Assembly (NCBI GenBank): GCA_027293165.1 | Contig: JAPUGB010000225.1 | Coordinates: 1 to 32,480, forward strand | Length of the DNA stretch: 32,480 nt | Direction: 5' to 3' | Source: Gammaproteobacteria bacterium | GTDB lineage: Bacteria; Pseudomonadota; Gammaproteobacteria; Steroidobacterales; GCA-2729495 | Shown here: piece by piece, positions 27,267-29,219 of the stretch | Layout of the letters: each line of letters opens with the position of its first letter | Position numbering within the stretch: position 1 is the stretch's first letter | Position numbers and translations under genes: made by a program | Notes under the pieces: model-generated | What the model was told of the DNA's origin: nothing | The model's input: only the letters and a program-made list of their open reading frames with translations | Databases searched by the model: none

Positions 27267-27330
27267 TCTGTTGTGGCCGCGCATTTGCGCCCAACGAGCC
27301 CCTGGGTCCGCCAATTTGCAGAACCTGCCA

Positions 27331-27358
27331 TTGTCTTTCCGGCGCGTGGCCCTAAACT
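27331..27358 (+). promoter_or_regulatory. Candidate ssrA promoter
   Basis: TTGTCT (27331-27336) and TAAACT (27353-27358) are 16 nt apart. Transcription would start near 27365 and give a precursor with about 22 nt of 5' leader, to be removed by RNase P at the mature end at 27387. Confidence 0.5.
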
Positions 27359-27386
27359 AGAAGTTCGACCACAGGTCCACCAGACT

Positions 27387-27745
27387 GGGGGCGACATGGT
27401 TTCGACGTGGGTTGCGAAACCCTGAGTGCATGCCGAGGCGCAGATCACCTCGTAAAACCAACTGCAAACCCTATAGTTGCCAACGACGACAACTACGCTT
27501 TAGCTGCTTAAAAACCAGCCTATAGCCCTCCGACAGGTTCGTGCTTGTGCGTCCGACTCGGGGGTCATCTATCGCAAGCTCGCGCAACGACATGTTTGGG
27601 GTCCGAGCGTTAAAACTTTTCCGAACTGGCTGCCGGCTTACCCTGCCCGTCGGGTTACCGTCAGTAAGATTAATGGCGGAATAAGCATGTAGAGCGCAGG
27701 GCGGAGAACTTACGGACGCGGGTTCGATTCCCGCCGCCTCCACCA
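27387..27745 (+). ncRNA. ssrA: Transfer-messenger RNA (tmRNA)
   Basis: The 359-nt RNA rescues stalled ribosomes with SmpB. The 5' end GGGGGCG pairs with CGCCTCC before the 3' ACCA, with one G-U pair. The 5' region carries GGTTTCGACGTGG and the TGCATGCCGAGG element typical of ssrA. The T arm GGTTCGATTCC is near the 3' end. The tag reading frame at 27479-27511 is GCC AAC GAC GAC AAC TAC GCT TTA GCT GCT TAA, giving ANDDNYALAA, against ANDENYALAA in E. coli. The length is close to the E. coli RNA (363 nt). A strong terminator follows after 53 nt. Confidence 0.98.
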
Positions 27746-27747
27746 AA
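27734..27747 (+). repeat. Left copy of a 14-nt direct repeat (ssrA 3' end)
   Basis: CCGCCTCCACCAAA covers the 3' end of the tmRNA acceptor stem and the CCA. An identical copy is at 27994-28007. Duplicated ssrA 3' ends are the usual trace of integrase-mediated insertion at this gene. Confidence 0.6.
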
Positions 27748-27798
27748 TTTGCGTGTATTTGAACAGGCGAATTTAAGACGCCGCGCAGCGGCTCAACT

Positions 27799-27825
27799 AA
27801 AGGGCGCCTTTATGGCGCCCTTTTT
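27799..27825 (+). terminator. Rho-independent terminator of ssrA
   Basis: AAAGGGCGCC (27799-27808) pairs with GGCGCCCTTT (27814-27823) across the loop TTTAT, and the T run 27821-27825 continues into ATT. A 10-bp GC-rich stem plus T run is a textbook terminator. Confidence 0.9.
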
Positions 27826-27846
27826 ATTGATCGCAGCAGTGTGTGA

Positions 27847-27868
27847 CGAACCCGCGTAGCGGTGTTCG
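27847..27868 (+). other. Hairpin with GTA loop at the head of the array
   Basis: CGAACCCGC (27847-27855) pairs with GCGG-T-GTTCG (27859-27868) around a GTA loop with one bulged T, nine base pairs in total. It comes directly before the GGA-loop hairpins and may belong to the same structured RNA. Confidence 0.5.
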
Positions 27869-27873
27869 ACGAT

Positions 27874-27993
27874 GTGCAGGATGCACTAGTGTCGCAGAGG
27901 ACATGGATGTCCGGGAGCGACTAGGCCAGGGATGGCCGAGAGCGACGCCCGCGATGCGCAGTGCTGCCCAGGCCAGGGATGGCCGAGAGCAGC
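27874..27993 (+). repeat. Run of four GGA-loop hairpins, candidate CsrA/RsmA-binding RNA or dispersed repeat
   Basis: Four 5-bp hairpins carry GGA in the loop: GTGCA-GGA-TGCAC (27874-27886), GGACA-TGGA-TGTCC (27899-27912), GGCCA-GGGA-TGGCC (27924-27937) and the same again (27971-27984). Two of them sit inside an outer 5-bp stem, GTCGC/GCGAC (27891-27895, 27917-27921) and GCTGC/GCAGC (27963-27967, 27989-27993). Spacing is identical, with 3 nt before and 4 nt after the inner hairpin. Stem bases differ between units in ways that keep pairing. CsrA family proteins bind GGA in such loops. No clear promoter or terminator of its own is seen, so the alternative is a genomic repeat element. Confidence 0.55.
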
Positions 27994-28007
27994 CCGCCTC
28001 CACCAAA
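27994..28007 (+). repeat. Right copy of the 14-nt ssrA 3'-end repeat (possible att site)
   Basis: CCGCCTCCACCAAA is identical to 27734-27747 and starts right after the last outer stem of the hairpin array. The 246 bp between the copies hold the ssrA terminator and the hairpins and no integrase gene. Confidence 0.6.
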
Positions 28008-28298
28008 ACAAAACAAGGTGTGGACGCAAAGGTAAGTCGCGAAGACTGGCTTGCTGATAAGCGCGCGGTGCTGCACTCGAGGATGCGCGAACGTCGCCGG
28101 TCACGCGCGACGTCCGGCGCCTGGAGAGTCAGCCTCTGGTAAACCCTCGGGCAGCACGGGCGTAGGCCACAACGCTCCTGCCATTCACCGCCAACGCAGC
28201 CGTGCCGCGCCCAGGCGCCTGGCGAGCCCACAGACAAGCTAGAGTTACCCACGCCTGCGGGGTACCCTTGCCCGCCGTGGGACGACTTCATCTGAATC
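28008..28298. other. Non-coding gap before the cation transporter gene
   Basis: No credible gene is seen. The stretch holds several inverted repeats: ACGTCG/CGACGT around 28091-28113, a perfect 12-bp palindrome CCAGGCGCCTGG at 28211-28222, and a two-part stem at 28248-28281 (CCCACG/CGTGGG outside, GCGGG/CCCGC inside) that ends 17 nt before the next start codon. These could be leader structures or repeat debris from an insertion. Confidence 0.4.
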
Positions 28299-29219
28299 GT
28301 GGCGGACTCCGACAGCAAAACTAATACCCAGACACGTGACCGGTTAATACGGGCGGCGAGCTATGCCTCCCTGACAGTCGCGCTGACCCTGGTGTTCGCG
28401 AAGTTGTGGGCATGGCAGGCGACCGGCGCGATATCAGTTTTGAGTTCACTGGCGGATTCGATTCTCGATGTGCTGGCGTCGGCGATTACTTTTGTCGCCG
28501 TTCGCTACGCACTCACTCCAGCTGATCGGGAACACCGGTTTGGGCACGGCAAAACCGAGGGTCTGGCGGCACTTGCGCAGTCGGTATTCATCGCGGGCTC
28601 CGCTGTGTATGTCGGCTACGAGGCGGTCGGACGGCTGTTCGCGCCGGCGGCTGTACTCCAGCCAATCACGGGTTTGACGGTCATTATCGGGTCCACCTTG
28701 CTCACACTGGCCCTGCTGAGTTTTCAACGGCTCGTGGTTCGCAGAACCGGTTCCGTCGCCATCGAAGCCGACGCACTGCATTACAAGACCGACGTGCTCG
28801 TCAACCTGAGCGTCGCTATCGCGATACCTATCGCCTCCTGGACCAACTGGACCATCATCGATCCATTGGTCGGAATTGGCGTAGCGGCCTGTCTCATGTT
28901 TAGCGCCTTCGGCATAGCCTCCAAGTCCATGGATATACTGCTGGACCGGGAGATTCCCGACGCACAACGGCAGCGTATCCGGGAAATCGCGCTGGCAAAC
29001 CCGGCCGTCAAAGGTTTCCATGATCTGCGGACACGTTCAGGTGGTACGCGTTACATAATCCAGTTTCACCTGGAGCTTGACCCTCAGACGACGCTGGTCG
29101 ATACCCACTTCATTCTGGATGCGGTGGAAGACGATATTCGCAGGGAATTCAAAGGCTGCGAGCTTATCGTGCACGCCGACCCAGTAGGATTCCCCGAACG
29201 AAGGGACAGGTTCGAGTAA
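28299..29219 (+). CDS. Cation diffusion facilitator family transporter (FieF-like)
   Basis: The 306-residue inner-membrane protein probably exports a divalent metal (Zn, Fe, Cd or similar) in exchange for protons. The transport-site residues are present: Asp53 and Asp57 in ADSILDVLAS, and His161 and Asp165 in HYKTDVLVN. FGHGKTEGLAALAQS and SFQRLVVRRTGS match E. coli FieF closely. The cytoplasmic C-terminal domain has HDLRTRSGGTRYIIQFHLEL and VHADP. About six transmembrane helices are expected. The start is a GTG at 28299 without a clear ribosome-binding site. The gene stands alone behind the ssrA region. Which metal it moves cannot be decided here. Confidence 0.93.
   Translation: MADSDSKTNTQTRDRLIRAASYASLTVALTLVFAKLWAWQATGAISVLSSLADSILDVLASAITFVAVRYALTPADREHRFGHGKTEGLAALAQSVFIAGSAVYVGYEAVGRLFAPAAVLQPITGLTVIIGSTLLTLALLSFQRLVVRRTGSVAIEADALHYKTDVLVNLSVAIAIPIASWTNWTIIDPLVGIGVAACLMFSAFGIASKSMDILLDREIPDAQRQRIREIALANPAVKGFHDLRTRSGGTRYIIQFHLELDPQTTLVDTHFILDAVEDDIRREFKGCELIVHADPVGFPERRDRFE

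Follow-up and report, generated by a model that had tools for sequence, protein, structure and literature searches.

A dispersed double-hairpin repeat with CsrA-type GGA loops behind ssrA in a gammaproteobacterium

The hairpin array behind ssrA

The host gene of the neighbourhood is ssrA (tmRNA), located at positions 27387..27745 on the + strand of the window, i.e., the whole stretch of 32,480 nucleotides that was analysed. The gene carries the tag ANPIVANDDNYALAA, is recognised both by ARAGORN and by Rfam RF00023 (232.6 bits), and is followed on the same strand by its intrinsic terminator (27799..27823). Past the terminator, again on the + strand, lies an array of hairpins that begins with a strong leading hairpin, CGAACCCGCGTAGCGGTGTTCG (27847..27868), the 3' arm of which runs into the T-loop-like GGTGTTCGA. 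The next part, unit 1, matches our covariance model R1 at 27874-27921 with 70.2 bits and consists of hairpin 1, GTGCA-GGA-TGCAC (27874..27886), and an outer stem (27891..27921), assigned from the R1 match and from covariation, in which GTCGC (27891-27895) pairs with GCGAC (27917-27921) around hairpin 2, GGACA-TGGA-TGTCC (27899-27912). The third GGA hairpin, GGCCA-GGGA-TGGCC (27924-27937), together with GAGAGCGAC forms a duplicated 3' half-unit (27922..27946) that lacks a 5' outer arm of its own; a similar extra hairpin is present in another copy in the same genome (C24:1893-1993). Unit 2 (27947..27993; R1 38.1 bits, E 4e-5) is degenerate, with no GGA in its hairpin 1, and its outer stem, GCTGC (27963-27967) and GCAGC (27989-27993), encloses the hairpin GGCCA-GGGA-TGGCC (27971-27984). 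The array is closed by CCGCCTCCACCAAA (27994..28007, + strand), where the 3' end of ssrA recurs as a 14-nt exact repeat of 27734-27747. In total, the array comprises one complete and two partial units.

The preliminary description of this DNA had reported four 5-bp GGA-loop hairpins within 111 nt after the ssrA terminator, preceded by a fifth, and two differing outer stems; we found all of these, the four hairpins having perfect 5-bp stems and starting at 27874, 27899, 27924, and 27971. Among 5000 dinucleotide shuffles of 27847-27993, 4948 contained no GGA hairpin, 52 contained one, and none contained more. Outside this region, the 32-kb window has two further GGA-loop 5-bp hairpins, both on the + strand. 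Folding of 27826-28010 gave z = −2.27. A consensus scan of 27300-28350 revealed no promoter-like site and no terminator other than that of ssrA, in line with the earlier remark that neither of its own is clear.

Since the array begins with the T-loop-like GGTGTTCGA and ends with CCGCCTCCACCAAA, it lies inside a second, broken tRNA-like ssrA 3' end, a circumstance that had escaped the first reading of the sequence. Alignment of the regions downstream of ssrA showed that a segment GAAC..CGCGT..CGGGTTCGAC, related to the part at 27847..27868, is also found 3' of ssrA in genomes G006, G024, and G012; in G006 and G024, which are other genera of the family, units related to the array also stand behind ssrA together with related upstream sequence. 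Most family members have no unit in this position in the same alignment. In genome G040 (locus L086), the ssrA 3' end is duplicated (GGTTCGATTTCCGCCGCCTCCACC) along with its terminator region and without a unit, and can serve as a natural counterpart of the versions in which a unit is inserted. A palindrome, AATTTGCGTGTATTTGAACACGCAAATT or variants of it, occurs at 27746-27776 of the window, after the second CCACCA in L083, and at L015:5444-5475. Its position 3' of the first ssrA end here and of the second in G006 suggests shuffling of the segments behind ssrA from one tRNA-like 3' end to another.

Architecture, covariation, and distribution of the repeat

In the unit, which is about 50 bp long, hairpin 1 stands on the outside and a linker leads to the outer stem, GTCGC/GCGAC, which encloses hairpin 2 (CANGGATG). 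The consensus reads NNNCA(N)GGATGNNN for hairpin 1, then the linker, GTCGC, hairpin 2 (NNNCANGGATGNNN), GRGA, and GCGAC, so that both loops have the form CA(N)GGA(T)G.

The own genome (G000) is a fragmented MAG of 2.36 Mb in 252 contigs. A BLAST search of the region against it gave further strong copies on contigs C24, C177, C93, and C155, with weaker copies on C127 and again on C24, all of them overlooked in the preliminary description. The covariance model R1, built on 36 units, has eight matches in this genome, seven of which are full copies at 66-75 bits, the eighth being the degenerate unit 2 behind ssrA. Further afield, R1 was positive in 33 of the 398 genomes of the phylum sample (E<=1e-3) and, within the order, in 80 of 296 genomes (E<=1e-4), with up to 20 copies per genome. 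An exact pattern run over 84,980 species genomes matched 23 stretches, among them MAGs of Bacillota (Desulfosporosinus, HGW-Firmicutes-8), Leptospirales, and Spirochaetes (Spirochaetota), as well as the isolate Arenimonas metalli. The unit core is near-identical across phyla, and units also duplicate in tandem. A search of plasmids gave no match. Two scans of viral contigs gave one match, an intact unit flanked by TTTGTGTCTTTGTGTGAT and CGGTGAATGA on a predicted viral contig (L251:8271-8320, IMGVR_UViG_3300013233_000566); this stretch may belong to a prophage or to bacterial flanking DNA. It should also be mentioned that several genomes, including the own genome, carry a second, simpler dispersed class made of GCCCGAAGGGCGA, one NGGA-loop hairpin, and (T/C)GAGT (L185:3752, L072:259, L038:1640-1690).

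The preliminary description had left a choice between a regulatory RNA confined to one locus and a structured repeat family, to be decided by a covariance-model search of the genome and its relatives. Because that search yielded many scattered copies in the own genome, the order, and the phylum, the array behind ssrA belongs to a dispersed repeat family and is not a single-locus regulatory RNA.

The suggestion that compensating stem changes reflect selection on structure was borne out by 109 distinct units: 98.2% of the pair cells are standard pairs, cells changed on both sides number 316 versus 94 in shuffles, and the covariation score is 0.52 versus 0.15 in shuffles and at most 0.11 with slid partners, figures that lean towards the structure because the alignment was fitted to the model. 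A MAFFT alignment of the 36 model-building units agrees with them (98.0% paired, 66 versus 18.8 changed on both sides). Hairpin 1 occurs with 30 different stems, while each position of its loop GGA is about 96-97% conserved; in the loop GGA of hairpin 2 this figure is 96-99%, and the C-A before and the G after the GGA are likewise kept. Judged by this comparison of sequences, the covarying stems and fixed loops demonstrate that the structure of the unit is under selection, and the combination of a fixed loop sequence with a free stem sequence is a signature of loop recognition by something.

With many scattered copies of conserved secondary structure in one genome, the unit is a dispersed palindromic repeat of the REP/MITE/DHE kind, and as such of a known kind; it combines a new architecture with CsrA-type loops, a spread across phyla, and unusual host sites. 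No Rfam family covers it at the gathering threshold, and such an element was not described in the open-access literature searched, which is weak evidence of absence. The RPE of Rickettsia and the DHE of fungal and algal mitochondria are short double-hairpin elements inserted, like the unit, into non-coding RNA genes and spacers, from which it differs in its unrelated sequence, its CsrA-type loops, and its spread across phyla.

Gardner and Eldai are said to have proposed the TwoAYGGAY and Bacillaceae-1 motifs as CsrA-binding RNAs. TwoAYGGAY (RF01731, clan CL00106) has been put forward as a CsrA-binding RNA (PMC2864571, PMC4333381), and for both motifs the argument was the same as the one used here (PMC4333381). 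TwoAYGGAY, known from gammaproteobacteria and Clostridiales, resembles the unit in its two hairpins with AYGGAY/NGGA loops, its conserved architecture, and the CsrA hypothesis attached to it, but both its hairpins lie within one outer stem and have stems of 10-15 bp, whereas the unit has hairpin 1 outside, an outer stem around hairpin 2 alone, 5-bp stems, and many dispersed copies. Membership in RF01731 was rejected, as the own genome gave no match even at E 10 (cut-off 43 bits). In 20 carrier loci, the sole RF01731 match adjoins a unit (L118) and none falls on one. This match (44.1 bits) lies where GGA-loop hairpins with several architectures are densely clustered (L118 / L151; G101:C1, ~205-206 kb), next to inverted unit copies about 600 bp apart.

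Sites occupied by the units

The units recur at three kinds of sites, mostly in one orientation: T-loops of displaced tRNA or tmRNA 3' fragments, loops of REP-like palindromes, and positions immediately 3' of terminator U-tracts. In the T-loop class, units sit in ssrA 3'-end duplicates (the own-genome ssrA locus, G006, and G024), in tRNA-Phe-like 3' fragments (own-genome contigs C24 and C93, tRNA identities assigned by eye) and tRNA-Leu-like 3' fragments (twice in one Firmicutes contig), in a fragment of G009, and in members of a tRNA array of G012. The latter array (L030:2750-5472, CAKZWQ010000008.1) contains about 16 tRNAs detected by ARAGORN and three further tRNA-like members whose T-loop holds the GGA double hairpin, as in GTGGGTTCGA|unit|CCCACCCGGTCGACCA. 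A strict test of the T-loop frame was passed by 7 of 115 copies, two of them doubtful, compared with about 1% at random positions; by its format, this test misses the ssrA-locus array, L026, and L002. Excision of the unit followed by ARAGORN restored no complete tRNA, since 3' fragments make up most of the T-loop hosts.

In REP-like palindromes, the unit occupies the loop, as in TAGGAGCGGCTTTGCT|unit|AGCCGCGA, and in Woeseiaceae-like genomes these loops contain tandem arrays of two or three units. Directly 3' of a terminator hairpin with its T-tract, we counted 7 of the 115 copies where 1.2 were expected; one copy lies there in the opposite orientation. At the four nucleotides 5' of hairpin 1, 77 of the 115 copies read YGMY and 12 read TTTT. 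A general rule of insertion into hairpin loops was also considered and dropped as not significant (3 versus 1.4 expected at weight 14, 58 copies); only the T-loop, REP-loop, and post-terminator classes hold up. In one subfamily (L002:2300-2380, L006, L011, L014), the unit seems to interrupt another dispersed repeat, GCTTTCGACCCAAAG|unit|CGGACRTTCRTG. By crude ORF calls, orientation between co-directional genes is weak (6 sense, 3 antisense), and the gene contexts are mostly convergent and thus uninformative for strand bias.

Candidate CsrA binding and alternative readings

Both loops of the unit, including those of the four ssrA-locus hairpins, match the CsrA/RsmA consensus, which was determined by SELEX as RUACARGGAUGU with the GGA in a hairpin loop (PMC4347634) and is given for Rsm proteins as CANGGAYG (PMC9308961). 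The N of the hairpin-2 loop is mostly T and not the R of the SELEX consensus. We also considered the Y of CANGGAYG as a protein-specific signature and discarded it, since this position does not discriminate in hairpin 1 (T78, A15, C11, G5).

A csrA gene, whose absence the preliminary description had named among the things that would count against its proposal, is found in the own genome (71 aa, in the order alaS-csrA-tRNA-Ser(GCT)). In the phylum sample, csrA was detected in 33 of 33 carriers versus 187 of 365 other genomes, an association inflated by relatedness, although 8 families are involved. Carriers among Bacillota, Leptospirales, and Spirochaetes also have csrA, except for one Desulfosporosinus MAG (G459). 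Searches of the family and order carriers G016 (19 units), G006, G002, and G628 gave no csrA match, the first three being uninformative because the G016 contig breaks off some 80 bp beyond alaS, and neither G006 nor G002 has the alaS fragment. In 400-kb samples, GGA is the top loop triplet of CA-closed 5-bp hairpins in G101 (13 versus a mean of 2.3) and G016 (14 versus 2.9), and it is absent from such hairpins in two csrA-less genomes (200 kb each); the numbers are small.

We consider it about an even chance (roughly 50%) that the unit is a non-autonomous double-hairpin element that spreads at the DNA level and whose RNA would present two candidate CsrA sites about 25 nt apart. Where transcription reaches the unit, as it might through read-through beyond the ssrA terminator, the RNA would fold and offer two CsrA/RsmA sites. 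A distance of about 25 nt between sites can be bridged by one CsrA dimer, so that each copy may act as a portable CsrA-binding module; titration of CsrA is conceivable where copies are numerous. CsrA binding as a property of the repeat gains plausibility from the loop consensus, the covariation of the stems, and the presence of csrA; the weak orientation relative to genes, the phylogenetic confounding of the csrA association, the carriers G628 and G459 with no csrA match, and the T in the hairpin-2 loop count against it. It is a more speculative extension, less likely than not, that a self-spreading DNA element with two strong CsrA sites, entering or following hairpins of non-coding RNAs (displaced tRNA/tmRNA T-loops, REP loops, and terminator tails) in gammaproteobacteria, Bacillota, and spirochaetes, would create a genome-wide CsrA decoy or regulon network.

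The main competitor, which we regard as quite possible, is a mobile palindrome acting purely at the DNA level, REP- or MITE-like, whose GGA loops and YGMY 5' foot would serve, in single-stranded DNA, as the recognition signal of a transposase or recombinase supplied in trans, the resemblance to CsrA sites being incidental. Dispersed, duplicating copies with a near-identical core across phyla, the frequent YGMY foot, the placement of copies in one orientation, both in REP loops and after terminators, and the tandem amplification within REP loops are all consistent with it. Like REP/BIME elements and RAYT-linked palindromes, the unit is intergenic, multi-copy, short, and imperfect, has a conserved 5' tetranucleotide, and favours 3'-3' intergenic regions; unlike them, it has a YGMY instead of a GTAG foot, two hairpins, fixed GGA loops, and covarying stems, and it inserts into REP loops instead of being a REP itself. 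Mobilisation by Y1/RAYT, the transposase class searched, was rejected: no such gene was found in carriers G000, G012, G024, and G029, and 30 Y1 transposase genes of other carriers have no clear unit nearby (one match of 16.9 bits). Flank inspection revealed no evident terminal inverted repeats or target-site duplication of the MITE type, and no exact empty site was recovered. Against an incidental resemblance, moreover, stands the match of the loop to one specific known RNA-binding consensus at about seven positions.

The preliminary description had suggested an undescribed CsrA-binding RNA; that a dedicated CsrB/RsmZ-like sRNA gene lies 3' of ssrA, at a locus conserved in the family and expressed by ssrA read-through, appears improbable to us. 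The four GGA hairpins within 111 nt and the related units and upstream sequences behind ssrA in G006 and G024 agree with it, and the repeated GGA-loop hairpins with CANGGAYG-type loops are shared with the sponge sRNAs CsrB/CsrC and RsmX/Y/Z. In contrast to these, the unit has no gene, promoter, terminator, or Rfam match of its own (the RsmY model scores 15.3 bits versus a gathering threshold of 57) and occurs as many short copies scattered over unrelated places; the lack of a promoter and terminator and of similar sequence behind ssrA in most relatives makes such a gene unlikely. Finally, chance palindromes or an assembly artefact, conceivable in so fragmented a MAG, are refuted by the shuffles, none of which reached two hairpins, by the recurrence of the unit across many independent assemblies, among them the isolate Arenimonas metalli and G005, a genome in a single contig, and by the strong covariation.

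Units in tRNA/tmRNA T-loops and behind terminators confuse the annotation of tRNAs, tmRNA, and sRNAs. Leaving CsrA aside, a double-hairpin repeat whose structure is selected, which crosses phyla and is not in Rfam, is an uncatalogued type of element. CsrA/RsmA regulons and sponge RNAs occur in lineages without clear common ancestry, and a mobile repeat bringing two ready-made CsrA sites at once into non-coding positions that are transcribed, if that reading is true, would be a concrete and testable route to such regulons and sponges.
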